Source: Planctomycetota bacterium (GTDB lineage: Bacteria; Planctomycetota; JAJSAM01; JAJVHW01). Taken from it: a stretch of 64,000 nt of DNA. This document shows, piece by piece, positions 17,580-37,201 of this stretch. The translations under genes were made by a program, and so were the position numbers. Below the pieces are notes generated by a model. The model did not search any database and was not told the origin of the DNA. It saw only the letters and a program-made list of their open reading frames with translations. Each line of letters starts with the position of its first letter. The stretch's first letter is position 1. The stretch is taken from positions 1-64,000 of the forward strand of contig JAJRPF010000047.1 of the NCBI GenBank assembly GCA_024280885.1. Direction: 5' to 3'.

Positions 17580-19411
17580 TACTTCAGGATCTTCTTGCTC
17601 CGTGCGCCGCGTACGAAGACCGCGCGCACGTCGCCGCCCTGTTCGTAGATCAGGAGGAGCGGGATCGGGCCCTCCGGGACGTTGCCCAGATCCACGTCGC
17701 CGCCGCGCACCGAGATGCGCTCCTTGGCGTAGTTGAGCGAGATCGCTTGCACCCCGTCTTCGACGGCTCCCGTCAGGACGAAGTTCTTGCCCTTGAGCGA
17801 GAGAGCCTCCGCTGGGACGTTCGCGGAAAAGATGTCGCCGAATGCGACGCGGACGTCGGGGGCGGTGTTCGGTGCGGACCCATCGCCCGCGATACCGGCG
17901 ACGAACTTGAACGAATGCCGCCCGACTCCCGGGAGCTTCGCCTTGGCCTTGCGGATGCTGATCGCCGGGGCGATGAGTGTTCCCGGCGCCTTCCCGAACT
18001 TGAACGCGCCGTTCGCGAGGATCACGGTCGCCTGCGCGTCCACGCCGCCACCGACGTACGAGAGCGTGAATTCTCCGTTGAGATCGGCGCCCTCGCCGAG
18101 GTCGCCACTGAACGTCAGCTTGTACTTCGCCTTCGAGGTCCCGAGCTTCGACGGGGTGACCTGGAAGACGAGCCCGTCGCCCTGGAACACGAAACTCTTG
18201 CCGCCCTTGACGGGAGTGAGCCCGGGCACGTCGAATTGTCGCGGACCGACCAGGATCGTCGCAGGCGCCGTCAGGTCCACGAGGTCCGGCCCTGTGTCGA
18301 ATGTGCCTTTGGACTTGACGCCCGGCTTCCCGCGCTTCGCTGGCGACAGTGTCACGGAGATCGTCTTCGGGAGTAGGAACGATCGGATCGTGCCTGCCGG
18401 CGCGGCGTTCACGTCCTCGAGCAAGGCGATCCCGCGCGGGCCGTTACCGACATTCACCGGTCCCTCGCGCTCGATATCCGCAGGGAGGTCTACGATGCGC
18501 AGCGTGTCGTCGTCCACGTCTGCGATCAGTATGCATGTCTCGTCGTCCGTGACGGCCAGAGCGTACGGCGTCCGACTCTCCGGCAGGTTGATCGAACGCA
18601 CGAACGTCTCGGTGGCGAGGTCGTAGATGTCGACGCGTCTGGAGAGCGCCGTTGCATAGGCCATCGAGCCAACGATGTCGACATCGCGTTGGTCGCCGAG
18701 CGACGGGAAGTCGAACGTCGAGTTGTCAGCGGTTCGAAGGACCGTCGGGCCGCCTTCGCCCACGATCAGGACCTTGGTGCCATCGGCCGAGACCTTCGCA
18801 TCGCGCGGTGCGTTCACGACCGGGATGGCGCTCGCGACAATCGTGTTGGTGTTCGTGTCGATCACATCCAGCGTGTCCGCTTTGCGGTTCGCGACGTACA
18901 CGCGCAATCCGTCCGGAGACACCGCGACACCTTCGGGAGACGCGTTCGACGACGAGAGAGGCACCGACGCGATCTCCGCCATCGTCGACGTATCGATCAC
19001 GTTCAGCGTGCTGGACGACTTGCAGACGACATACACGCGACTTCCGTCCGGGGAGACCGCGAGGTTGTACGGCTCCGAACCGGTGAGCGCGACCGTCGTG
19101 AGCACCGAGTCGGAACTGGTCGAGATCACCGTCACGTCGGCACTGAAACGGTTCGGAACAAAGAGCAGCGTGCCCGCCGGGTTGAGATCACAACCACGAG
19201 GCTCTCTACCCGTTGGGATCGTGCGCGTTTCGGTGAGCGTCGCGAGATCAATGACCGAGACGGTGCGCGAGTCGGTGTTACTCACGTAGACTTTCCCGCG
19301 CCGCGGCGGCGCTCCGCCTTCTCCGGTCCGCGCGGCTTGCTCTCCCACAGCGAGCAATGCGGCTCCGAACGTGAGAACTACCAGTGCGTTCTTTAGTCGA
19401 GCATGCGACAT
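17576..19411 (-). CDS. YVTN/YncE-family beta-propeller repeat protein, secreted
   Basis: Repeats 'GKVYVSNTDSRTVSVIDLATLTETRTIPTGREPRG', 'SPDGSRVYVVCKSSSTLNVIDTSTM'; signal peptide after ATG at 19411. Confidence 0.88.
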   Translation of the reverse strand: MSHARLKNALVVLTFGAALLAVGEQAARTGEGGAPPRRGKVYVSNTDSRTVSVIDLATLTETRTIPTGREPRGCDLNPAGTLLFVPNRFSADVTVISTSSDSVLTTVALTGSEPYNLAVSPDGSRVYVVCKSSSTLNVIDTSTMAEIASVPLSSSNASPEGVAVSPDGLRVYVANRKADTLDVIDTNTNTIVASAIPVVNAPRDAKVSADGTKVLIVGEGGPTVLRTADNSTFDFPSLGDQRDVDIVGSMAYATALSRRVDIYDLATETFVRSINLPESRTPYALAVTDDETCILIADVDDDTLRIVDLPADIEREGPVNVGNGPRGIALLEDVNAAPAGTIRSFLLPKTISVTLSPAKRGKPGVKSKGTFDTGPDLVDLTAPATILVGPRQFDVPGLTPVKGGKSFVFQGDGLVFQVTPSKLGTSKAKYKLTFSGDLGEGADLNGEFTLSYVGGGVDAQATVILANGAFKFGKAPGTLIAPAISIRKAKAKLPGVGRHSFKFVAGIAGDGSAPNTAPDVRVAFGDIFSANVPAEALSLKGKNFVLTGAVEDGVQAISLNYAKERISVRGGDVDLGNVPEGPIPLLLIYEQGGDVRAVFVRGARSKKILKY

Positions 19412-19768
19412 GACGTCTCCCCTCATCGGTGACAACATGGAAATGGGGCAAGCCCACATCGGCACTCTACCAGCTGGTCGTCCGCGATGCGACCGTGAGG
19501 GAGCCCGCCATCGGCGCGAGGCGCGGTGGTAGGTGGTCTCCGCGGCAAAAAGACCGCAGTTCTGAGCCTCCGCAGATCCCCATTCACGATCCACTGCAAC
19601 GGTCGGCTGTCGGCGCGGAGCAGCGGCGCGAAGGCACTCCACATGACGACTGGCCTCGGTCCCGCGGAGATTCTACAACGCGCAGATGGCGTGCGTCCGT
19701 TGGCGCGTCTTCTCGTCGGCGATGATCATCGGGTCGAGAACGTCATCCCATCCGCGCAGTTCCGGTTG

Positions 19769-21448
19769 CTACTCCTGCTCGCTCTTCGGCAACTCCAGCA
19801 CGAAGCGGACGAGTTGCCAGACCTGATCATCCGACAGCGCTTCCTGCGCGGGCATCGGCGTGCCGGGGATGCCGATCCGGAAGCGCTTGAAGAGCTCGGT
19901 CGGCTCGGAGCCACCGTGGAATCTGCCCGTCGTCAGATTGCGTGCGCGGATCGGATTGCCGAGCGTGTCGAGCAATTCCTGCGGGCCGTCGCCGCGGCCA
20001 GTCGGACCGTGGCATGACGCACAGTTGTCGGCGAAGATCGTAGCGGCAGCAGCCGCGTCGTACTTGAAGTCGGGGCTGCGCGCCGGGACGACCAGCGGCT
20101 CGCCGGGCGTCACGCGCTCGAGCGCGATCTCCTCGATCTCTTCGGGCTCGATGTCATCGTCGTCGGCGAACGCCTCGGTCAGCTCTGCGGTCACTCCTCG
20201 CAGACGAATGCTCCGCAGGAAGTCGATGAGCAGGCGCACCTCTGTGTCGGTGAACTGCGGGTCGGAGGGCATCTCCTCGATCCCTCTTCCCGTTGCGATC
20301 GTGCGTCGAAGATCCTCGTCTGTGGCCACTCCCTCCATGGTCGAGACGTAGCGGAATGGCTCGCGCAGGAAGTTGCGAGGGCGTGTGCCGATGGTCGCGG
20401 CAGCCGGGCCGTCGCCCGCTCCTGTCGGTCCGTGACACGCGGCGCAGAACATCTTGAAGAGCTCTTCGCCCGTGACGGCCCGGTCGGCGTCGCCTCTCAT
20501 GGTGCGGGGGCGCGGAGTGTGGCTTGCGGGGGCGCTCTTGCGATGGAGACTCATGACGAAGAGCGTCAGCGATCGGTTCTGCTCCGGCGTCAGGTCGAGG
20601 GGCGGCATCACGGTGCCGGGCGAGATCGTGGCGGGGGACTCGAAGTGCTCGGAGAGCCATTGCTGGACGGTGTGCTCGCCCTTGACGTGTGTGAAGTCGA
20701 AGTCGTGGGCTTCCTTGTCACCGATGTGCGTCAGATCAGCTCCCAGGTCGCCGCCGCCACCGCGGTACTTGTGGCAGCCGAGGCAGCCGGACTCGACCAT
20801 GAGACGCTTGCCCTCGGCGAGCACCTCGACACCGGGGAGGTCGAGTCGGAGCGACGCGCGGTCGATCTCGGGGCGTGTCACTTCGTCCGCACCGGAGCCG
20901 GTGCCCCCCGCGTAGAGATCCGCCTGTCCTCCGTAGAGATCGAGCTCGTAGTGGCAGCGGCCGCAGCTCGTATAGATCGCGTCGCCACGCAAGAGCGGAT
21001 GCTCCGTGTGGCGCACGGGCTCGCCGGTGTCGAGATGCCCGTGCGCGGTCCCACGCGTCGTCGCGCGACCCTGGCCTTGATGGCAAATCGTGCAGCCGAA
21101 TTTCTCGGACGGGTGGAGCTTGAGCGTTCGTCCGGGATGAGCGCGCAGCGGTTGTTCCGCGTCCGCCATCGTCGGGTTCTCAATCCCCACGTGGCACGTG
21201 ACGCAGCGGTCCACCGTGCGCAATTCGCGCAGGAAGATCTGCTTCGGTTCGATGACGAACGCATTCGCCGATCGGAGCGCCGCATCGGTGTCCGCGTTGG
21301 CGACGAGAGCTTCGCTGTACTCCCACTGAGCGGAGCGCCATTCGCCGCTGAAGTTGTCGCGGTATGCTTCGCTTGCGAGCGCGCCGATCGTCAGCAACGA
21401 GCTGCCGAGCAGGACGATCTTCATCACAGTGATCTGGTCGGTTGCCAT
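19769..21448 (-). CDS. Hexaheme c-type cytochrome, membrane-anchored, of the Rieske/cytochrome b complex
   Basis: Six CxxCH motifs (CVTCH, CTICH, CGRCH, CLGCH, CAACH, CASCH); N-terminal TM. Confidence 0.92.
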   Translation of the reverse strand: MATDQITVMKIVLLGSSLLTIGALASEAYRDNFSGEWRSAQWEYSEALVANADTDAALRSANAFVIEPKQIFLRELRTVDRCVTCHVGIENPTMADAEQPLRAHPGRTLKLHPSEKFGCTICHQGQGRATTRGTAHGHLDTGEPVRHTEHPLLRGDAIYTSCGRCHYELDLYGGQADLYAGGTGSGADEVTRPEIDRASLRLDLPGVEVLAEGKRLMVESGCLGCHKYRGGGGDLGADLTHIGDKEAHDFDFTHVKGEHTVQQWLSEHFESPATISPGTVMPPLDLTPEQNRSLTLFVMSLHRKSAPASHTPRPRTMRGDADRAVTGEELFKMFCAACHGPTGAGDGPAAATIGTRPRNFLREPFRYVSTMEGVATDEDLRRTIATGRGIEEMPSDPQFTDTEVRLLIDFLRSIRLRGVTAELTEAFADDDDIEPEEIEEIALERVTPGEPLVVPARSPDFKYDAAAAATIFADNCASCHGPTGRGDGPQELLDTLGNPIRARNLTTGRFHGGSEPTELFKRFRIGIPGTPMPAQEALSDDQVWQLVRFVLELPKSEQE

Positions 21449-21536: not shown

Positions 21537-22292
21537 TCAGTGCGTCGGCCAGTCGCTTTGTGACCAGTAGAAGTCCCAGTTCGGACCTCGGTGGACCGTT
21601 GCGAAGTACGTCAGGATCAGGAAGCCGACGAGGAAGCACGTGAAGACTGCGATGGCTCCCATGCGCGTCGATTTGGTTGCGCGCACGATCCCGAGCGACC
21701 ACGCGGCGAAGAGTGCGACGAGTACGGTGCCCGGGTTGAAGAGCGTGATCACGATCTGCGGCACCTTCGCGGTCGCCTCCCAGTTGCGTAGCCAACCGAG
21801 TTGCACGGTGAAGACCAGCATCCCGACGACCGTCAATACGCCGTAGCCGACGCTCGCGAGCGCGATCCGCTTGCCCTTGCGCCCGCTGAACCAGACGCCC
21901 GAGTCTTCCTTCTCGCGGTCGAGATAGGGGATGAGCGCCAGGCCGAGTATGACGATCCCGGGGATGCCGACGCCGCCCATGAAGGCCGAGTAGGACACGA
22001 GCTCTTGGAGACCGAGGAAGTACCACGGTGCCTTGGCGGGGTTCTCCGGCACGTTCGGATTCGCGTGTTCCACGAGTGGTGCATCAATGAACACGCCGAG
22101 CAGCGTCACAGCGAGGATCGTTGCCATGCTGACGGCGGCGATCACATAGATCACGTTGGGCCACGTCGTGACGGTATTGCGTGGGTTGCGGTTGACGAGC
22201 GGCGTGGTGCCCTTGACGAGCGCCATCAAGCCGTAGGTCTTGAGTATTTTCGTCTGGGCGCCGGTCGTCGCCGTCGTCGTTGCCGGGACCAT
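21537..22292 (-). CDS. Cytochrome b C-terminal-domain subunit (PetD/subunit IV-like)
   Basis: 'PENPAKAPWYFLGLQELVSYSAFMGGVGIPGIVILGLALIPYLDRE'. Confidence 0.9.
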   Translation of the reverse strand: MVPATTTATTGAQTKILKTYGLMALVKGTTPLVNRNPRNTVTTWPNVIYVIAAVSMATILAVTLLGVFIDAPLVEHANPNVPENPAKAPWYFLGLQELVSYSAFMGGVGIPGIVILGLALIPYLDREKEDSGVWFSGRKGKRIALASVGYGVLTVVGMLVFTVQLGWLRNWEATAKVPQIVITLFNPGTVLVALFAAWSLGIVRATKSTRMGAIAVFTCFLVGFLILTYFATVHRGPNWDFYWSQSDWPTH

Positions 22293-22295
22293 GTC

Positions 22296-23126
22296 CTAGT
22301 CATCGGCGGACTTCGGCCGCGCGATCCCGCCGTCCTTTCGCACGCGCCACATGTACACCGCGATCATCACGACGAGCGCGACTGGAATCACCATCACATG
22401 CAACATGTAGAAGCGGATGAGAGCTTCCTCGCCCACATGATGCGCGCCGAGAAGCAGCTCTTTCTGCATTCCCCCGATGTCGAAATGCTGCGTGATACCG
22501 AGGGCGTCGGTCAGTTCACGAGGCGACTCGGCGATGTTGGCGCCGATCGTGATCGCCCAGAACGCGAGTTGGTCCCAGGGAAGCAGATAGCCGGTGAAGC
22601 TGGCCGCGAACGTGAGGACGAAGAGACTCATTCCGATGAGCCAGTTGAAGCGTCGCGGTCCCTTGTACGACGCGGTGTAGAACGCGCGCGCCATGTGCAG
22701 GATGACGCAGATGACCATGCCGTGCGCCGCCCACCGATGGATGTTGCGCATCGCGCGTCCGGTCGGGACGACGTACATGATGTCGAGCATCGACGTGTAC
22801 GCGTCCTCGACCGACGGCTTGTAGTAGACCATCAGCAGGACGCCGGTGACGCACAGCACGAAGAAGAGCACCATCGTGGCGACGCCGAGCCCGAGCGTCG
22901 CCCGGGCCTTGATCGCGTGCAGGTGAGTGCGCGTCGGTAGAATGTGCAGAAAGAAATTCGACGAGACGGTCTCCGCGCGCGTGCGGTCCGATGTCGGCGG
23001 GCCGTGGCGGAAGATGGAATCGCGAAGAGCCTTCGGCGTCGAGCGCAGGTTCTGTATGAACTCGCTCATCGCCCCTGGATCCCCTGGCTCGCGGTCCGGC
23101 GGTCGGTTCTCGTCTGCGGTGGTCAT
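22296..23126 (-). CDS. Cytochrome b N-terminal-domain subunit (PetB-like, diheme b)
   Basis: 'RNIHRWAAHGMVICVILHMARAFYTASYKGPRRFNWLIG', 'GYLLPWDQLAFWA'. Confidence 0.93.
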   Translation of the reverse strand: MTTADENRPPDREPGDPGAMSEFIQNLRSTPKALRDSIFRHGPPTSDRTRAETVSSNFFLHILPTRTHLHAIKARATLGLGVATMVLFFVLCVTGVLLMVYYKPSVEDAYTSMLDIMYVVPTGRAMRNIHRWAAHGMVICVILHMARAFYTASYKGPRRFNWLIGMSLFVLTFAASFTGYLLPWDQLAFWAITIGANIAESPRELTDALGITQHFDIGGMQKELLLGAHHVGEEALIRFYMLHVMVIPVALVVMIAVYMWRVRKDGGIARPKSADD

Positions 23127-23171: not shown

Positions 23172-23666
23172 TCAGGCGGTTACGGCCGTTCCGGGGGACA
23201 CTTCTGTCAGCTTGTCCGCGATCAGATCGCCCTCGGGCGAGAAGCTGAGCGCGATCCAGAGGAGTCCGCGCGGAGCGGGGCCACCGGTCACCTCGCCCGC
23301 AGAGCTGAATTGCGAGCCATGACAGGGACACTTGAATGCGCCGTCGTCGAGTCTCGTCACGATGCAGCCGAGGTGGGTGCAAACGGACGAGAGAGCGTGA
23401 AAACCCTGCTCGTCGCGGAAGAGCCACAGGTGGTGCTCCGAGAAGTACGTGGCGGAGTCGAGGGCGAAACGGTCCGGGCGACCCAGTTTGACGCGCGGGC
23501 TCGACTCCGGAAAGACGCCGGGCATCGGCAGGCGCGCTGCCCCGAGAGCCGCGAGCACGAACGCGCTGGCCGCAGACCAGGCCGCAGCGAGCCCGAGGAA
23601 ATCCCGCCGCGGCACCGGTTCCTCGAAGCGCCGTGACTGCTTCAGATCACTCGTGGCCTGCGTCAT
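23172..23666 (-). CDS. Rieske 2Fe-2S protein
   Basis: 'CTHLGCIV...CPCHGSQFSSAGEVTGGPAPRGL'; Arg-rich N-terminus plus TM. Confidence 0.95.
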   Translation of the reverse strand: MTQATSDLKQSRRFEEPVPRRDFLGLAAAWSAASAFVLAALGAARLPMPGVFPESSPRVKLGRPDRFALDSATYFSEHHLWLFRDEQGFHALSSVCTHLGCIVTRLDDGAFKCPCHGSQFSSAGEVTGGPAPRGLLWIALSFSPEGDLIADKLTEVSPGTAVTA

Positions 23667-25620
23667 GGCGAACCTCCGTCGCAGCCGGTGCAGTTCCGGG
23701 TGCCCACTTGGTGGCGAATGTCAGTCGTTCCATCGTGATGGCTCCGGTCGGGCAGCGCACCGCACACAGTCCGCAGCGGATGCAGGCATCCTCGTCCTTG
23801 ACGATCGCCGACATCTCCGCGAGTTCGGCCGGCCCGAAGTGCGCGCGCAACGTCGCGGCAACCTCGGGGTCACCGACCAAGCGATCCGCCGACACCAACT
23901 CAAGGCAGGTCTCGGGACAGATGTCGGCGCAACCGCCGCAGAGGATGCACTTCTCGGAGTCGAAGATCGTATTGACCCCGCAGTCGAGGCAGCGCGACGC
24001 TTCGCGTACGGCTTCTTTGACCCCGAAGCCCGACTCGACGCTGGCCGTCTGACTCGCGCGGCGTTCTTCTACGGGCGCAGCCGGGATCTCGGTGCGCGGG
24101 AGCTTCTCGTAGCTTGCTTCGCGCTTGAAGTTGGGTATCTCGACGTGCTTGTGTGTCGTTGCTGCTACCAGCGGTGCGCCCTGCAGATGCTCTACGATGT
24201 GCCGCGCACAGCTCTTGCCGCTGGCCACCGCATCGATCAGGAGTTTCGTTCCGTAGGCAACGTCGCCCGCGACGAAGACGTCTCGTGCGGTCGTGGTGAG
24301 GATGTCGGGATCGCACTCGATGAGCCCGCGCTCGGTGACGCGCACATCGCCGTCCGGGTCGATGAACGAGAGGTCCGGGACCTGGCCGACCGACCAGATA
24401 ACCGAGTCGGCCTCGATCACGGTCTTGTCGTCGGCGTCGAATTGCGGCGCGAAGCGGCCCTGGTCGTCGAGCACGCGCAGGCACTTCTGGAACGTCACGG
24501 AGCGCACGCTTCCGTCGTCGTTACGGTCGATCGACACCGGGCCGAGGGAGGCCCGCAGCATCACGCCCTCTTCGTGGCCTTCCAGGATCTCGACGTCGTC
24601 TGCTGGCATGTCGTCGATGCTCTCGAGGCAGCAGAGATGGACGGACTCGACACTCGCCCCTCGCTCGGTCCGCTGTCGGAGCACGCTGCGCGAGATGTCG
24701 TACGAGACCTGACGAATGACCGTGCGCGAGACGTCGAACGCAACGTTGCCGCCGCCAATGACCACGACGCGACGTCCCAGATGCCGGAGGGTCGAGTCTT
24801 CGCCGTGATCGCGCAGCGCCACGTCGCGCAGAAACTCCACGCCTCCGAAGACGCCAGGGCCCTCGGAACCGGGGATGGAGACCATGCGTGAACGCTTGGC
24901 TCCGACGGCGATCAACGTCGCCGCGAACTGCGCTCGGATCTCGGCAAGAGTGATGTCCACGCCGACCTGCGTATCGCAGACAAACTCCACGCCGAGTGCG
25001 CGGATGACGTCCACTTCGCCGCGGATCACATCGCGCGGCAAGCGATATTCGGGGATGCCGACGGCCAGCATCCCGGCCGGGACCGGCTCCATCTCGAAGA
25101 TCGTGGGGCGATAGCCCTGCAGCGCGAGATCGTGAGCTGCGGCGAGGCCCGCGGGCCCGGAGCCGATGATCGCCACCTTGGGACCTGTCCGGGTGACCGG
25201 ATCGGCGATGCCAGCGGTCTTCGGGAGCGCGCTCAGTTCCTCCGCTGCGGTGCACTCCCGATCTGGCGCGTGCGCGAGCGTGCGCGACAGTGCGTCGAGC
25301 GGGTCGGCGGCGCCTGTGCCCCACGCCTCGGGGCCGTGACGCTCCGTGACGAAGCGCTTGAGCGCGCGAATAGCGACGGGTTCGTCGATGTCGCCGCGTC
25401 GGCAGGCGGATTCGCACGGCGCACCGCAGACGCGGGCACAGATGCTCGCCAATGGATTGGGCGCACGCGCGGTGAGATACGCCGCCGAGAAATCGGACGC
25501 AGCGATTGCGCGCACGTAGCCGCGCGCGTCGGTGTTGACCGGGCATGCGGCCTGGCACTTGATCTGGCGTAGCCAGTAGTCGTCGCTTGGGATCTCGACG
25601 TTCAGCTTGGGGCGTTCCAC
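23647..25620 (-). CDS. GltD-like FAD/NAD(P)-dependent oxidoreductase with C-terminal 2x[4Fe-4S] ferredoxin domain
   Basis: N-terminal Cys cluster 'CQAACPVNT...CARVCGAPCESACRRG'; 'VAIIGSGPAGLAAAHDLALQGY'; 'VVVIGGGNVAFDVSRTV'; 'CILCGGCADICPETC', 'CIRCGLCAVRCPTGAI'. Confidence 0.92.
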   Translation of the reverse strand: MERPKLNVEIPSDDYWLRQIKCQAACPVNTDARGYVRAIAASDFSAAYLTARAPNPLASICARVCGAPCESACRRGDIDEPVAIRALKRFVTERHGPEAWGTGAADPLDALSRTLAHAPDRECTAAEELSALPKTAGIADPVTRTGPKVAIIGSGPAGLAAAHDLALQGYRPTIFEMEPVPAGMLAVGIPEYRLPRDVIRGEVDVIRALGVEFVCDTQVGVDITLAEIRAQFAATLIAVGAKRSRMVSIPGSEGPGVFGGVEFLRDVALRDHGEDSTLRHLGRRVVVIGGGNVAFDVSRTVIRQVSYDISRSVLRQRTERGASVESVHLCCLESIDDMPADDVEILEGHEEGVMLRASLGPVSIDRNDDGSVRSVTFQKCLRVLDDQGRFAPQFDADDKTVIEADSVIWSVGQVPDLSFIDPDGDVRVTERGLIECDPDILTTTARDVFVAGDVAYGTKLLIDAVASGKSCARHIVEHLQGAPLVAATTHKHVEIPNFKREASYEKLPRTEIPAAPVEERRASQTASVESGFGVKEAVREASRCLDCGVNTIFDSEKCILCGGCADICPETCLELVSADRLVGDPEVAATLRAHFGPAELAEMSAIVKDEDACIRCGLCAVRCPTGAITMERLTFATKWAPGTAPAATEVRHDAGHE

Positions 25621-27044
<1,424 letters not shown>

Positions 27045-27048
<4 letters not shown>

Positions 27049-29048
27049 GCCGTCACCTCCCGCGGCAGGAAGACGGGCAGCGTGACACGGATGAGCGCAC
27101 CGCCTCCCGCTGCGTCGCAGACCTCGATCGTGCCCTTGTGGCTCTGCACGAGCCCGTGGCAGATGGACAGTCCGAGACCGGTGCCGCGGCCCTCCGGTTT
27201 GGTCGTATAGAACGGCTCCAAGACGTGTGCGCGTTCGGATGTCGGGATGCCGGGCCCCTCGTCTGCCACCTCGACGACGACGCGCTTCGACGACGTGGGC
27301 TGCGACCCGGGCACGTTGCGCGTGGTGATCCGGATCGTGCCGCCGTCGGTCATCGCGTCGATGGCGTTCCCGACGAGATTGATGACGACCTGCTGCAACT
27401 CGTTCGAGTTGCCGTACGTCTGCGCCAGATCCGAAGCCAGCGCCAGCTCGACGGTGACCGACGACCCACGGAAACGAGGTTCGAGGAAGTCCCGTGCGCG
27501 GCGGATGACCTCGTTCAAGTCGGTGGCGGAGCGGAGACCGCTCGACGGCCGCGCGAACGCCAGGAGACCGCCGGTGATCCCGGCGATCCGATCCGCATAC
27601 GTGACGATCTTCTCGAGTTCCTGCGCGACTTTGGGCGGCATCGCGTCGCCGGTGAAGTTCTGGAGCAAGAGCCGGGCCTTCGCGCTGATGACTCCGACGG
27701 GGTTGTTGACCTCGTGGGCGACGTTGCCGGCGAGCTCACCGATTGCGGCCAGCTTACTGGTCTGCGCGACGCCGGCTTCGGCAACGCGTCGCGCCGTGAC
27801 GTCCTGCACGAGTTCGACCACCTGCGCAGGTTCGCCCTGCTCGTCGAGTACCGGCGTTGCGGTGACAAGCAGGTAGCGACGGCCACCCGTGGGCCGCTCG
27901 ATCACGAACTCGCGCTCTGTCGTGCGTTGTGTAGCGACGGCACCCGCCACCAGGTCGGCTGCCGGATCCGTGCCATCGGTGCTCGCGAACTCCGCCACGT
28001 CCCCGAGCCACTTGTCGGCGCGCGCATTCCGCCACTCGGTGCGCCCCTCGGCATCGCAAACGGCGAGACCTGCTCCGGAGGCATCGACCACTCCCTCGAG
28101 GCGCAACTTCTCCGCCACTGCGTGCTTCGCGGCGCCGACGAGCTTGCGTTCGGTGCGGCGCAGTCGCCCCGCGATCAACGTCGTGAAGTACGTCGAGCAG
28201 AAGAGCAGCAGAAGCATCACGACGACGTGACTGACGACAAAGCGCAGTTCGTGCGATGAGTGGATCGCGTTCTCCGCGTCGTGCGGGTGGAGTTGCAGTG
28301 TGAAGTGATCAACGACGTGCGCCATCTCGGCGAACCCGAGCCCTGCGTAGAGGATGACTGCCACGCCGGCGAGCAGGAAGGCGTGGCCGCGCGGGAGAAG
28401 GATGCCCGCAAGGATCACGTGGAAGATGTAGACCGCGCTGAGCGAGTTCTCCAGGCCTCCCGAGTAGTGCAGCAGAAGGGTGAGAATAGTGAGGTCCGTG
28501 GCGACCTGCGCCAGCACGAATGCTTCCTTGTGCCCGTGCGTGGGAACGGCGCGTGCCAAAACGATGTTGGCACCGACCAAGAGCAGCGTCAGCGCGACCA
28601 GGGGAGGGAGGACCTCGTCAGGTAGCAATCGCGTGACCGGCACGGCGATGATGACGGATGCCGCCACGACCGTGACAGCGAACCACCGCAGCCCGACGAA
28701 CCACTCGGCGTTCCGCCGGACCACGGAGGGTTCCGGTGCCCACGCGAAGCCGGGCCCGCTCTCGCGCACGCGATCGCTCGCACTCTGCCGACACAGATAG
28801 TGCCGCGCGACGATCCATCCGACGATTGCCGCGACGGCGAGCCCGCGGATCGCGTGAGCTGTGCGTACCGCGGCGACGGAAATCTCCGGGAGGGCCCATA
28901 CCTCCAGCGCGTGTTCTGTGCCAAAGGCAAGCAGCGTTGCCACAAGGCACTTCGCAGCGAGCGTCCAGACGTCGCCCGCGGAGCGTGCTTCGCCGCACGG
29001 TGTGGGCGCTGCGCCCGCTCCATCGTGTTCCGTGGATCGACCTGCCAT
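27045..29048 (-). CDS. Membrane sensor histidine kinase with PAS domain
   Basis: Multiple TM helices; H-box 'GELAGNVAHEVNNPVGVI'; 'ADEGPGIPTSERAHVLEPFYTTKPEGRGTGLGLSICHGLV'; stop overlaps the regulator ATG. Confidence 0.92.
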
Positions 29049-29361
29049 AGGGAGTTCTCCCGTCACGAACCTATTGAGGCTCGTGATGTTCCCACCGACA
29101 GCGGTTGCGTTTCGATCCATTTCGCGTCTCGTGTCCCTGCGTTGCAAGCTGCGGACCACCGCGAAGCGACGCGCAGTCGGCTCTTCGAATTGTCGTGGTA
29201 CGGCCTCGGCCGAGGACGCCGCCAGCACCTGTCGCGCGTGTCACATGAATGTGAAACTCGACCGCCGATTTCTCACGAACGAGACGCCGAAAGCGCGCCT
29301 GACCGCCCGATTCCTGCCTGCGGAACCCTCAGGAGCACGCGCAGGCGGCGCCGTCCGACAG

Positions 29362-29377
29362 CGGCACGCACCGTGCG
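29362..29377 (+). promoter_or_regulatory. Weak candidate sigma54 (-24/-12) promoter upstream of the porin gene
   Basis: CGGCAC-GCACC-GTGCG; GG-N10-GC spacing kept but two or more mismatches to TGGCAC-N5-TTGCA. Confidence 0.25.
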
Positions 29378-29445: not shown

Positions 29446-30762
29446 GTGTTGCGTCCGAAAACCACATTCGCCCTGGCAGCATTCCTCGGGGTCTTCGCTG
29501 TAACAGCCCGAGCCGAGGACGCAGCCCCAGGGCCAGACAAGGAGCCGTCCGGCTCCGTATCACGCGCAGAATTCGATCGCTTGAGCAGGGCATTCGATGA
29601 GATGCGAGAGGCCTTTGATGTCTATCGATCCGACGCCGAGAAGCGCCAGACGATCGGCAGTTTGGCACCCGATCGAAGCGCGCTCGGGGAACAGGTCGAG
29701 TGGTTGACGTCGCGCATCGACGCGGGGCGATCTGGCCGCCAGCGCTTTGTCATGACGGGGTTCGCGACGATGTCGTACGCGGATCACGAGGGCAGCAACT
29801 CGAACTTCTCCGCCGCGTTCTCGCCGGTCTTTCTCTTTCGCATGACCGACCGCATTCTCCTCGAGGCCGAGCTGAGCGCGCGAGCGGGCGGAGAAGAGGA
29901 CGAGGTCGAGCTGGAATACGCGCAGGCGTCGTACGTCGCCACCGATTGGCTGACCCTCGCTGGTGGCAAGTTCCTGAGCCCTTTCGGTTCGTTCCAGGAG
30001 CGCTTGCATCCGAGTTGGATCAACAAGCTCCCGTCGAACCCGCTCATCTACGGCCACGACGGGGCGCTCGGCCCCGAAGGCATGCTCGGAGCCCAAGCGC
30101 GGGGTGCTATTCCGGTCAACGACTCCGGTGGAAAGGTGACGTACGCAGTCTGGATGTCCAACGGGCCGGGACTCGTGGACGAGGGCGAGGAAGCTGAGGA
30201 CGGCACGTCCCGCACCGGGCTTCTCGACTACGAGTCCGGTCGCGACAACAACAACGACAAGTCGTTCGGTACGCGACTCGCGTACATACCGGTTCCGGGC
30301 ATCGAGATCGGCGGATCGTACTGGGGCGGCCAGGCCGGCGCATCAGGCGGCGAGTTCCGGGACGTTGACTTCCGTCTCCTCGGAGCGGATTTCGTGGCGC
30401 AGTGGCGCGATGTTGACGCGGTCTCTGGCCACGTGGAAGTGCGCTCGGAGTGGATCTGGTCGGATGTCGATAACAACAACCTCTCGTACAACAACCGCCG
30501 CGACGGCGGCTACGTGCAGGTGGCGTATCGCCCGCACGTTGATGCAGCGGGCTCGGTGCTGAACGACTTCGAGGCGGCCGTTCGCTACGACAAGCTGGAC
30601 GTGCCCGGTGGGGCGCCACAGAACGACATGTCGGGCTGGACCGTCGGTCTCAGTTACTGGATGTCACCGACGTCCGTCCTGAAGTTCGCCGTCGAACTGC
30701 GTGACGTAGACGACGAGTCGGATCAGACGAACGTGCTCGTGCAGTGGGGTCTCGCGTTCTAA
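29446..30762 (+). CDS. Outer-membrane porin (phosphate-selective porin O/P-like)
   Basis: GTG start after TGGAGGT; signal peptide; N-terminal coiled coil; beta-strand pattern 'LLEAELSARAGGEEDEVELEYAQASYVATDWLTLAGGKFLSPFGSFQERLHPSWINKLP'. Confidence 0.8.
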   Translation: MLRPKTTFALAAFLGVFAVTARAEDAAPGPDKEPSGSVSRAEFDRLSRAFDEMREAFDVYRSDAEKRQTIGSLAPDRSALGEQVEWLTSRIDAGRSGRQRFVMTGFATMSYADHEGSNSNFSAAFSPVFLFRMTDRILLEAELSARAGGEEDEVELEYAQASYVATDWLTLAGGKFLSPFGSFQERLHPSWINKLPSNPLIYGHDGALGPEGMLGAQARGAIPVNDSGGKVTYAVWMSNGPGLVDEGEEAEDGTSRTGLLDYESGRDNNNDKSFGTRLAYIPVPGIEIGGSYWGGQAGASGGEFRDVDFRLLGADFVAQWRDVDAVSGHVEVRSEWIWSDVDNNNLSYNNRRDGGYVQVAYRPHVDAAGSVLNDFEAAVRYDKLDVPGGAPQNDMSGWTVGLSYWMSPTSVLKFAVELRDVDDESDQTNVLVQWGLAF

Positions 30763-30787
30763 GGACGCAGAGTTGGAGGTCGTGACC

Positions 30788-31621
30788 ATGACTATTCAGA
30801 AGCACCGAATTCAACTGATGGCAGCCATTCCGGCGGCGCTGCTGACGATTACAGTTCTTGCCGTGACGGTGGCTGCACCAGGTTGTGCAACATCCACAGA
30901 CAGCGAACCGGTGGCGGATCTCTCGCGTGCCGAAGCGCTCTTCGTCGAGAACTGCGCCTCGTGCCACGGCGTCAGCGGTGACGGCCGCGGCCCGATGGCA
31001 TCACTGCTGCAGGTCCGACCGCGGAACTTCAGCGACGAGGAGTTCCGCTACGTCTCGGCCCCGGGCGGTCCGCCGACGCAGGACGACCTCGTCCAGACGA
31101 TCCGAGGCGGGCGAACGATGGGGCAGATGCCCGCGTTCCCGTACCTCGATCACACCGACGCGCGCCTTCTCGCGGACTATGTCCGCAAGCTCCGCGAGAC
31201 GGGGGTCGCGAAGATGCTCGTGGTGGAGTTCGCCGACGACGACGAGATCGAACCCGATGAGATCGCTGAGATTGCGGAGGAGCGCGTCGCGCCGGGCGAT
31301 CCGGTCGCCATCGTAGGCCCCTCCGCGGAGTTCCGGATCGACACGGAGCGTGGCCGGGCCCTCTACGCAGACAATTGTTCTTCCTGCCATGGCGCCAGTG
31401 GGCGCGGTGACGGTCTGGACCTCCCGAAGGACGAACTCGGCAATCCCATCGAGGTGCGCGACATCACGTCGGGCCGCTTCAATGGCGGGGCCGCTCCGAT
31501 GGAGATGTTCAAACGCATCCGTTGCGGCATCCCCGGCACTCCCATGCCGGAGGCGTCCGCACTGAGTAACGACGAGGTCTGGCAGCTCGTGCACTACGTC
31601 GATCTGCTGGCCGGAAACTGA
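30788..31621 (+). CDS. Diheme c-type cytochrome, paralogous to the C-terminal half of the hexaheme protein
   Basis: Two CxxCH motifs (CASCH, CSSCH); long collinear similarity to the C-terminus of the 19769-21448 product. Confidence 0.92.
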   Translation: MTIQKHRIQLMAAIPAALLTITVLAVTVAAPGCATSTDSEPVADLSRAEALFVENCASCHGVSGDGRGPMASLLQVRPRNFSDEEFRYVSAPGGPPTQDDLVQTIRGGRTMGQMPAFPYLDHTDARLLADYVRKLRETGVAKMLVVEFADDDEIEPDEIAEIAEERVAPGDPVAIVGPSAEFRIDTERGRALYADNCSSCHGASGRGDGLDLPKDELGNPIEVRDITSGRFNGGAAPMEMFKRIRCGIPGTPMPEASALSNDEVWQLVHYVDLLAGN

Positions 31622-31637
31622 TGAAATCGGAGACCAC

Positions 31638-32399
31638 ATGATGAGCAATACACGCACTGCAATTGGAGTCGGCGCCGTCGCGCTGGCCTGCATTCTCGGT
31701 TCGGCGCAGCTTGTGGCGGCACCGAAGTACGAAGTGGTGGAGTTGGCCGAGAGCGGGACGATCGTCGGCATCGTCTCCTTCGATGGCGCCGCTCCGGCAC
31801 CGCAGAAGATCACGATCCCGGCAGGCGAGGATGTCTGCCACTCCGACCCGATCGTCAAGGAGGACGTTGTCGTCTCGGCCGACGGCAAGTTGCGGTGGGC
31901 CGTCGTCTCGCTGAAGAAGCCGGCGAAGGGCAAGGCGTTCCCGGCGGACGATCCTGAGAAGCCGATCGTCCTCGACCAGGTGGGGTGTCGCTTTGTCCCT
32001 CACGTCGCGGTCGTGCCCGTCGGACGGACTCTCCGCGTCCTGAACAGCGATGGCATCCAGCACAACGTGCATGGCAAGGCTAAGAAGAACAAGCCGGTCA
32101 ACAAGTCGATGCCCAAGCAGATGAAGACCTTGGACCTCACGTTCAAGCGTGCCGAACGCATCCCCTTCGTCTGCGATGTGCACGACTGGATGAAGTCGTG
32201 GGTCATCGTGTCGAAGCACCCGTACTACGCTATTTCCGCGGCCGACGGTTCGTTCAAGTTGGACCAGGTCCCCGTCGGTACCCACACGGTCCAGCTGTGG
32301 CATGAGAAGTACGGCACCCTGACGCAGGAAGTCACGGTCGCGGCCGGCAAGGAAGCTCGGATCACATTCGTCGTGAAGCCGACGGAAGCCGCCAAGTAG
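31638..32399 (+). CDS. Secreted cupredoxin-like protein with C-terminal carboxypeptidase-regulatory-like domain
   Basis: 'LNSDGIQHNVHG' and 'FVCDVHDWMKSW' (Cys-x2-His-x2-Met, type-1 Cu pattern); 'AADGSFKLDQVPVGTHTVQLWHEKYG'. Confidence 0.82.
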   Translation: MMSNTRTAIGVGAVALACILGSAQLVAAPKYEVVELAESGTIVGIVSFDGAAPAPQKITIPAGEDVCHSDPIVKEDVVVSADGKLRWAVVSLKKPAKGKAFPADDPEKPIVLDQVGCRFVPHVAVVPVGRTLRVLNSDGIQHNVHGKAKKNKPVNKSMPKQMKTLDLTFKRAERIPFVCDVHDWMKSWVIVSKHPYYAISAADGSFKLDQVPVGTHTVQLWHEKYGTLTQEVTVAAGKEARITFVVKPTEAAK

Positions 32400-32475
32400 C
32401 CCGGACGTCAACCACGAACAAAGAGTCAACCGCGTACGGACGAGCGAGTACCGAGTACGCTGACAGGAGACAACG

Positions 32476-32826
32476 ATGCGACGTGCACTGATCTTGATCG
32501 TGATCGGCCTGGCGCTGCCATTCGCCGCGCTGGCAGTGACCGCATGCCAATCACCGGCGAAGAGCGATGTGACCTCTGACGCGACCACGTCCGCCGTGCT
32601 GCCGCCGGCCGAAGGCTCGACGACGTCGATGGATGCGGGGGTGGCCGTCGAGCCGGGTGGAGCGCGTCTGTGGGAACAGAATTGCATTCGGTGTCACACG
32701 CTGCGTCTCCCCGAAGAGCGCAGCGATGCCGAGTGGGAGGTGATCGTCCACCACATGCGGGTGCGCGCGAACCTCACAGGGCAAGAGGGCCGCGCGATCA
32801 CGCGGTTTCTGAAGGCCGCCAACTGA
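32476..32826 (+). CDS. Small monoheme c-type cytochrome lipoprotein
   Basis: Hydrophobic signal with 'AVTAC' lipobox-like end; 'NCIRCHTLRLPEERSDAEWEVIVHHM'. Confidence 0.8.
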   Translation: MRRALILIVIGLALPFAALAVTACQSPAKSDVTSDATTSAVLPPAEGSTTSMDAGVAVEPGGARLWEQNCIRCHTLRLPEERSDAEWEVIVHHMRVRANLTGQEGRAITRFLKAAN

Positions 32827-36621: not shown

Positions 36622-36650
36622 AGACGTACGACTGCGTCAGGCGTACGTCT
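36622..36650 (-). terminator. Hairpin overlapping the stop of the 36649-37104 gene
   Basis: AGACGTACG-N11-CGTACGTCT perfect 9-bp stem. Confidence 0.45.
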
Positions 36651-37104
36651 ACTTCGCGGCGGCGGCCTTCACCTTCGCGACGAACTTCTCCGGAGTCTCC
36701 TTGAACTCCTCGAGGCAGCCTTCGCAGCAGAACTGGATCTCCTGGCCGTCGAACTCGTACGCAATCGCGTCACCCATCGAGCCACCGAGGTCTTCGTCGC
36801 TGACGACGCAGGTTTTCATCGGGTAGTCGGCCGACGGCTCGATCTTCTTCAAGCCGGGCATCGCCGCTGCTGCAGCGTCGCCCATCGCGGCCATGTCGTG
36901 TCCGCCAGCCTTGGCATGGTCGCCGTGACCAGCGCCATCGTGGTCGCCATGGCCGTCGCTCTCGCCCGCGGCCTCCTCGACGGCATCGGAGCCGTGCGCG
37001 CTGTGGTCGTGCCCGCCCTCCGGCTCCTGATCGGAGTTGCAGGCGACCAAGCCGAAGGCGAGGATACCGGCTGTCGTGAGTGAGAGGACTCGGGTGAACT
37101 TCAT
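36649..37104 (-). CDS. His-rich lipoprotein with C-terminal TRASH/YHS-like Cys domain; probable periplasmic metal-binding protein
   Basis: 'AFGLVACNSD' lipobox; 'HDHSAHG...GHGDHDGAGHGDHAKAGGHDM'; 'IQFCCEGCLEEFKETPEKFV'. Confidence 0.8.
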   Translation of the reverse strand: MKFTRVLSLTTAGILAFGLVACNSDQEPEGGHDHSAHGSDAVEEAAGESDGHGDHDGAGHGDHAKAGGHDMAAMGDAAAAAMPGLKKIEPSADYPMKTCVVSDEDLGGSMGDAIAYEFDGQEIQFCCEGCLEEFKETPEKFVAKVKAAAAK

Positions 37105-37185: not shown

Positions 37186-37201
37186 TGCAACCTGCGTGCC
37201 A
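37186..37201 (-). promoter_or_regulatory. Consensus sigma54 -24/-12 promoter for the 36649-37104 gene
   Basis: Minus strand reads TGGCAC-GCAGG-TTGCA, an exact match to TGGCAC-N5-TTGCA, ~82 nt upstream of the ATG. Confidence 0.75.

Follow-up and report, generated by a model that had tools for sequence, protein, structure and literature searches.

Cyc2, an Fe(II) oxidase, consists of a one-haem domain fused to an OprO/OprP-like porin and carries the motif AXPXFAR[Q/K][T/Y] upstream of its CXXCH (PMC8406198), and the rus/petI system of Acidithiobacillus ferrooxidans combines an outer-membrane monohaem porin-cytochrome with a dihaem cytochrome c4, rusticyanin and a bc complex feeding nicotinamide adenine dinucleotide (phosphate), NAD(P) (PMC2754497). 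Complexes of a Rieske protein, cytochrome b, hexahaem cytochrome c and NAD(P) oxidoreductase have been described from Kuenenia, for which NAD(P)H formation by electron bifurcation was proposed, not proven (PMC12954380). Here, an assembly of comparable parts is described from a 64,000-nucleotide stretch (positions 1 to 64,000 of contig JAJRPF010000047.1, assembly GCA_024280885.1; hereafter the window) of a Planctomycetota bacterium, the genome of which comprises 6.3 megabases in 74 contigs and is 91.5% complete. The GC content is 66.5%, and the 16S gene of the genome matches the Planctomycetes PLA46 probe site perfectly, in keeping with its placement in Planctomycetota. As had been predicted from the nucleotide sequence alone, four consecutive plus-strand genes for exported proteins are present, encoding an outer-membrane porin (29446-30762), a dihaem class-I cytochrome c (30788-31621), a two-domain blue-copper protein (31638-32399) and a monohaem cytochrome c lipoprotein (32476-32826). 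Comparison with related genomes shows that the porin and the predicted monohaem lipoprotein are passed on together, usually alongside a class-I cytochrome, and shows a putative kinase/regulator pair with a matching promoter accompanying them in the window's own clade. The module may well be a member of a conserved sigma54-controlled outer-membrane redox unit, a split Cyc2-like porin-cytochrome by which periplasmic carriers and a small solute, with a reduced metal ion as the likeliest candidate, would exchange electrons.

With Cyc2 the module shares a single small haem c domain, a porin of similar size that is probably related to the 16-strand OprO/OprP-like type of Cyc2, and periplasmic c-type carriers, and fused variants of the pair exist elsewhere (in G063 and, as a different fusion, in Legionella). 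In contrast to Cyc2, porin and cytochrome are encoded by two separate genes and the haem domain resides on a lipoprotein; the defining motif is absent from all aligned monohaem proteins, and the PXL motif four residues after CXXCH is absent in the window and its orthologues, although most of the proteins have Pro there. Membership in Cyc2 was rejected on the separate genes and the missing defining motif; with the same kinds of part on two genes, the module may therefore work like Cyc2 without belonging to it. The layout of the window also parallels that of rus/petI, in that a porin with a monohaem cytochrome, a dihaem cytochrome, a blue-copper protein and a bc-type complex with NAD(P) lie together, but here the cupredoxin is amicyanin-like and bears an extra immunoglobulin-like domain, no oxidase is found in the operon, the NAD(P) oxidoreductase is encoded within the bc-type operon, and the proteins are different throughout. 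As in MtrAB and other porin-cytochrome complexes, an outer-membrane barrel is encoded with c-type cytochromes. However, the module contains no multihaem cytochrome that could span the barrel, its cytochromes having only two and one CxxCH, and membership was rejected; a 438-amino-acid porin is also too short for a 26-strand barrel. The monohaem domain bears a weak likeness to the SorB family (0.0034, below the cut-off; a profile of the domain matched the SorB structure 2blf at 3.8e-4), with the difference that here it is a lipoprotein paired with a porin and that no sulfite dehydrogenase gene was seen nearby. No description of a split porin/monohaem pair was found in the open-licence literature searched, which is weak evidence of novelty.

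Conservation and control of the porin-monohaem pair

Porin orthologues (E<1e-50) were detected in 7 of 392 planctomycete genomes, with the monohaem partner present in six of these seven and adjacent in five; the compared genomes are drafts, and gene calls in the relatives are open reading frames made for the present analysis. The pairing holds in all seven readable orthologous loci. In G004, a member of the same family, the dihaem cytochrome (60% identical), cupredoxin (54%) and monohaem protein (63%) are encoded consecutively and are followed on the opposite strand by the regulator (66%) and kinase. The G004 porin (47%) begins on contig C103, whose start overlaps the end of the cytochrome contig (read by eye, with some mismatches), so that it lies across the regulator and kinase genes from the cytochromes; kinase and porin are therefore divergent there, as in the window. 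The regulator and kinase occupy one strand and the class-I cytochrome, porin and monohaem protein the other in G228 and G362. In G172 the genes for regulator, porin, monohaem protein and cytochrome all share a strand, and a cupredoxin/CuA-like gene comes after them; G345 lacks a regulator and encodes the porin, the monohaem protein and the cytochrome. In G295, which holds the seventh porin orthologue, the porin ends at the contig edge and a cytochrome lies on its other side. A further orthologue, used in none of the profiles, was found later in G394 by a search around G228. This locus was opened after a monohaem lipoprotein had been predicted behind the porin, and one was found there: cytochrome, porin and monohaem genes share one strand, with the regulator and kinase on the opposite one. 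A lipobox is present in all six orthologous monohaem proteins first collected and in that of G394.

The conserved core, as read from these gene orders, is a porin, a monohaem lipoprotein, a class-I cytochrome and a divergent sigma54 histidine kinase/response regulator pair, together with a sigma54-like promoter ahead of the first structural gene. The cupredoxin was ruled out as a core part, being found only in the window and G004, with the gene of G172 representing a different, cupredoxin/CuA-like protein. The CDF/copper genes of the window were likewise set aside for the orthologous clade, as none was seen beside the module in G004, G228, G362, G345 or G172.

The plus-strand genes are arranged as originally described, but two points of the earlier account need correcting: the dihaem cytochrome is probably a lipoprotein too, and the operons are separated by two minus-strand regulatory genes, both part of the conserved unit. 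These encode a PilS-like sensor histidine kinase with six transmembrane segments and a PAS domain (27045-29120, its start being uncertain among 29228, 29120 and 29048) and an NtrC-type sigma54-dependent response regulator (25621-27048), to which the module-side regulators of G004, G172, G228, G362 and G394 are 52-66% identical. Each of the six loci with a regulator has a sigma54-like element ahead of its first structural gene, lying on the sense strand 47-94 base pairs (bp) before the start and matching 8 to 10 of 11 consensus positions. The element of the window (CGGCACGCACCGTGCG, 29362-29377, plus strand, 84 bp upstream of the porin start) is weak, with 8 of 11 positions, and that of G394 is strong, with 10 of 11 (TGGCACGACTCTTGCG); random pieces from the same loci score 8 in 3.5% of cases. 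No such element was found before the structural genes of the regulator-less G345. Because the loci are related, the six promoter elements are not independent events. Both features of a sigma54-controlled operon, a -24/-12 element and an NtrC-type regulator, are thus present. Elsewhere in the window, a full-match sigma54-like site (TGGCACGCAGGTTGCA, 37186-37201, minus strand) lies about 100 bp before a His-rich lipoprotein gene (36649-37104) in a copper efflux island.

The pairing extends well beyond the orthologous loci. A profile of the monohaem protein (A2) matched in 57 of the 392 genomes at 1e-7, and a porin was encoded directly upstream on the same strand in 13 of 20 monohaem loci outside the A2 training set; the same porin profile gave no match in 483 kilobases (kb) of control loci. 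Across 24 pairs, the distance matrices of porin and monohaem protein were correlated (r=0.60; 0 of 5000 permutations as high), a correlation that partly mirrors shared ancestry. When plasmids were searched with the porin and monohaem queries separately, adjacent genes were obtained in Alteromonas, Glaciecola and Legionella; on plasmid pKD02 of Alteromonas macleodii KD01, the cytochrome occupies 18502-19026 and the porin 19035-20210. In G063 the monohaem domain is fused to the N terminus of the porin, and in Legionella three class-I cytochromes are fused to the porin. These data bear directly on the possibility that the protein is an ordinary OprP-type anion porin lying beside cytochrome genes by chance, to which a distant match of PF07396 to three of the seven porin orthologues might point. 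Linkage to the monohaem protein over distant lineages, the fusions and the shared regulation all argue against it, and this explanation is considered very unlikely. The porin-cytochrome linkage, which the original prediction had made its decisive test, is strongly conserved, and the idea of an outer-membrane redox module survives for this reason.

Several related arrangements were observed in the course of these searches. The fused protein of a Legionella anisa plasmid (10708-13637) has 758 amino acids, with three class-I cytochrome domains and the porin, and the gene after it combines a monohaem domain with a class-I cytochrome. On an Alteromonas stellipolaris plasmid (9911-11095), a porin relative is split over several frames beside copA and copper resistance genes. 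The genome of the window itself encodes a second porin on another contig (G000:C59, 8637-11726), behind which are encoded a lipoprotein that has CGGSCH (CxxxCH) where CxxCH would be expected, a DUF4920 protein and a membrane protein of the PepSY type; in G001 the corresponding cluster has a normal CxxCH. Matches resembling the monohaem protein within the multihaem cytochromes of G070 and G008 were discarded as merely general CxxCH regions.

Properties of the encoded proteins

The porin (438 amino acids) is assigned to the distant Porin_O_P (OprO/OprP-like) family and has an N-terminal coiled coil. Its gene starts with GTG at 29446, preceded by a GGAGG ribosome site, and the protein contains no Cys residue. 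Pfam porin models gave no match to the window porin, a search of the PDB with the porin profile returned no porin but only coiled-coil and chance matches, and a search of viral contigs with the porin revealed no relative. An alternating-hydrophobicity count gave 22 strand peaks, a figure that is not trusted, and single-sequence structure predictions yielded no usable fold for either the porin or the cupredoxin (predicted local distance difference test scores of 33 and 35).

The three carriers carry the cofactor motifs originally ascribed to them. The dihaem cytochrome has two CxxCH motifs in two Cytochrom_C stretches; it probably begins at ATG 30788, with TTG at 30773 as a possible alternative start, and is probably also a lipoprotein. 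The exported blue-copper protein consists of a carboxypeptidase-regulatory domain (PF13620, 5.7e-10) and an amicyanin-like cupredoxin domain, recognized through amicyanins in the PDB (7e-4), with the type-1 copper ligand set His142 and Cys179-x2-His182-x2-Met185. The SorB-like monohaem protein has one CxxCH and a lipobox, and its motif reads CxxCH-(N/T)xRxP...W...HMRxRA.

The neighbouring Rieske/cytochrome b operon

The divergent bc-type operon reported beside the module is real. On the minus strand it encodes a GltD-like flavin adenine dinucleotide/4Fe-4S NAD(P) oxidoreductase subunit (23647-25620), a Rieske iron-sulfur protein (23172-23666), cytochrome b in two parts, namely a b6-like subunit (22296-23126) and a subunit IV-like protein (21537-22292), and a hexahaem cytochrome c (19769-21448). 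All parts expected of a Kuenenia-type complex, among them a hexa- or octahaem cytochrome c, are therefore present, and the gene set is the same as that described for Kuenenia (PMC12954380), with the difference that here the operon lies outside the conserved porin module. The best PDB matches of the Rieske protein, 9rk4 and 9rk3, are taken, from their titles and the content of that paper, to be presumably Kuenenia Kuste4569 and Kustd1480.

The proposal that the whole 19.8-32.8 kb block forms one conserved unit did not hold, since none of the other porin-orthologue loci, that of G004 included, has the bc-type operon beside it; among these loci, an anammox-kind NAD(P)-linked Rieske/cytochrome b operon adjoins the porin module in the window only. 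The closest cytochrome b of G004 is of another type (45% identical), which places the NAD(P)-linked complex outside the conserved set. Conversely, operons with the same NAD(P) subunit in G070, G071, G027, G058, G036 and G008 have no porin module, and where the contig continues, the sequences read downstream of them encode a molybdopterin oxidoreductase. The molybdenum enzyme directly downstream is NarGH-like in G027, with matching gene sizes in G058 and G008, and NapA-like in G070. Accordingly, of the redox path once drawn from complex to porin, the outer-membrane module survives, but its union with the adjacent complex in one block is not supported.

One link between module and complex remains in the sequences: over 257 residues, the dihaem cytochrome shares 49% identity with the C-terminal half of the cytochrome subunit of the bc complex and, judged by this likeness, is a duplicate of that dihaem half. 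This duplication and the adjacency of the divergent operon would fit the outward flow of electrons originally proposed, from quinol through the Rieske/cytochrome b complex to the dihaem cytochrome and cupredoxin, then to the monohaem lipoprotein and through the porin to an extracellular acceptor. Such outward transfer appears improbable, however, as the other porin-orthologue loci have no such complex beside them, the module has no multihaem cytochrome to span the barrel, and like complexes elsewhere adjoin nitrate/nitrite-type molybdenum enzymes.

Other electron-transfer clusters were seen in these genomes. In many planctomycetes, the source of the window among them, genes homologous to that for the window cupredoxin adjoin Rieske/cytochrome b operons whose octahaem cytochrome has about 1000-1300 amino acids (L037, L038, L039, L040, L047, L093 and L103). 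The same genome also contains a large multihaem electron-transfer cluster (G000:C41, 1374-10579), in which cytochromes with about 12, 19, 9 and 16 CxxCH motifs surround a Rieske and a cytochrome b gene.

Metal genes and the proposed function

There is good support for the pairing and for its control; what the pair does, in which direction and with which substrate, we infer. In the preferred reading, the porin would form an OprP/Cyc2-like barrel, and the monohaem lipoprotein would sit at its periplasmic mouth, exchanging electrons with a solute admitted by the pore, the likeliest being a reduced metal ion such as Fe(II). Electrons would then pass to the dihaem lipoprotein and, in the family of the window, to the blue-copper protein, and onward to a terminal oxidase; in this organism a part may go to the divergent NAD(P)-linked Rieske/cytochrome b complex. 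Four COX1-type oxidases are encoded in the genome of the window.

Genes for metal handling lie beside the pair in several lineages. In one genus (G288, G232 and G210), an FTR1 permease gene is found near the porin-monohaem pair, the order in G288 being Fur, FTR1, class-I cytochrome, porin and monohaem protein. In G067 (C84, 9118-13133), the gene behind a porin encodes a cupredoxin of the window type fused to an FTR1 iron permease. Copper efflux genes lie downstream of the module in the window, and CusAB/CopCD and Met-rich proteins are encoded around the pair on the Alteromonas plasmids. Given the iron genes of the relatives and the nearby copper genes, electron uptake from a reduced metal ion is preferred, with metal uptake or tolerance as its main rival and outward transfer third.

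According to that main rival, Fe(II) or Cu(I) would enter by the porin and be oxidized in the periplasm by the cytochromes and cupredoxin for import or tolerance, the electrons being a by-product. The FTR1 genes beside the pair together with Fur in G288, the cupredoxin-FTR1 fusion beside a related porin, and the copper genes of both the window and the plasmids are in keeping with it, and the FTR1/EfeU iron uptake systems offer a comparison, as FTR1 in relatives either adjoins the same pair or is joined in one protein to a cupredoxin of the same family. On the other hand, the permease was not found in the genome of the window, inspection of the sequences showed no metal genes by the module in G228, G362, G345 and G172, the metal links are inconsistent, with iron in some genomes and copper in others, and plasmids bear metal genes anyway. 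Metal uptake or detoxification is therefore regarded as rather unlikely to be the principal role.

Several observations also weigh against electron uptake from a reduced metal ion through a split Cyc2-like pair. FTR1 (PF03239) is absent from the genome of the window at 91.5% completeness, so the iron link of the relatives may not transfer to it, and the adjoining copper efflux genes here and on the Alteromonas plasmids would suit a copper role. The window and G004 have other genes between the porin and monohaem genes, conservation of the module does not extend to the NAD(P)-linked complex, the Cyc2 motif is missing, and the distance correlation of the pair owes something to common descent. Moreover, at the periplasmic mouth a lone haem may be too distant from the exterior to reach any but a dissolved donor.

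A broader, more doubtful proposal is that split porin and monohaem-lipoprotein conduits constitute a widespread class in Planctomycetota and on plasmids of Gammaproteobacteria, not described in the literature searched, and that here, with a dihaem carrier, a blue-copper protein and an NAD(P)-reducing complex, they might form a complete machinery for life on dissolved reduced metal, with an origin independent of that in Acidithiobacillus. Cyc2 is a main marker by which bacteria oxidizing dissolved iron are found. Searches for Cyc2 by its motif would overlook a two-gene system of similar layout whose haem motif is unrelated, so that the extent of metal-based metabolism in Planctomycetota could be underestimated. 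With the promoter and regulator conserved, the inducing conditions are open to direct testing.

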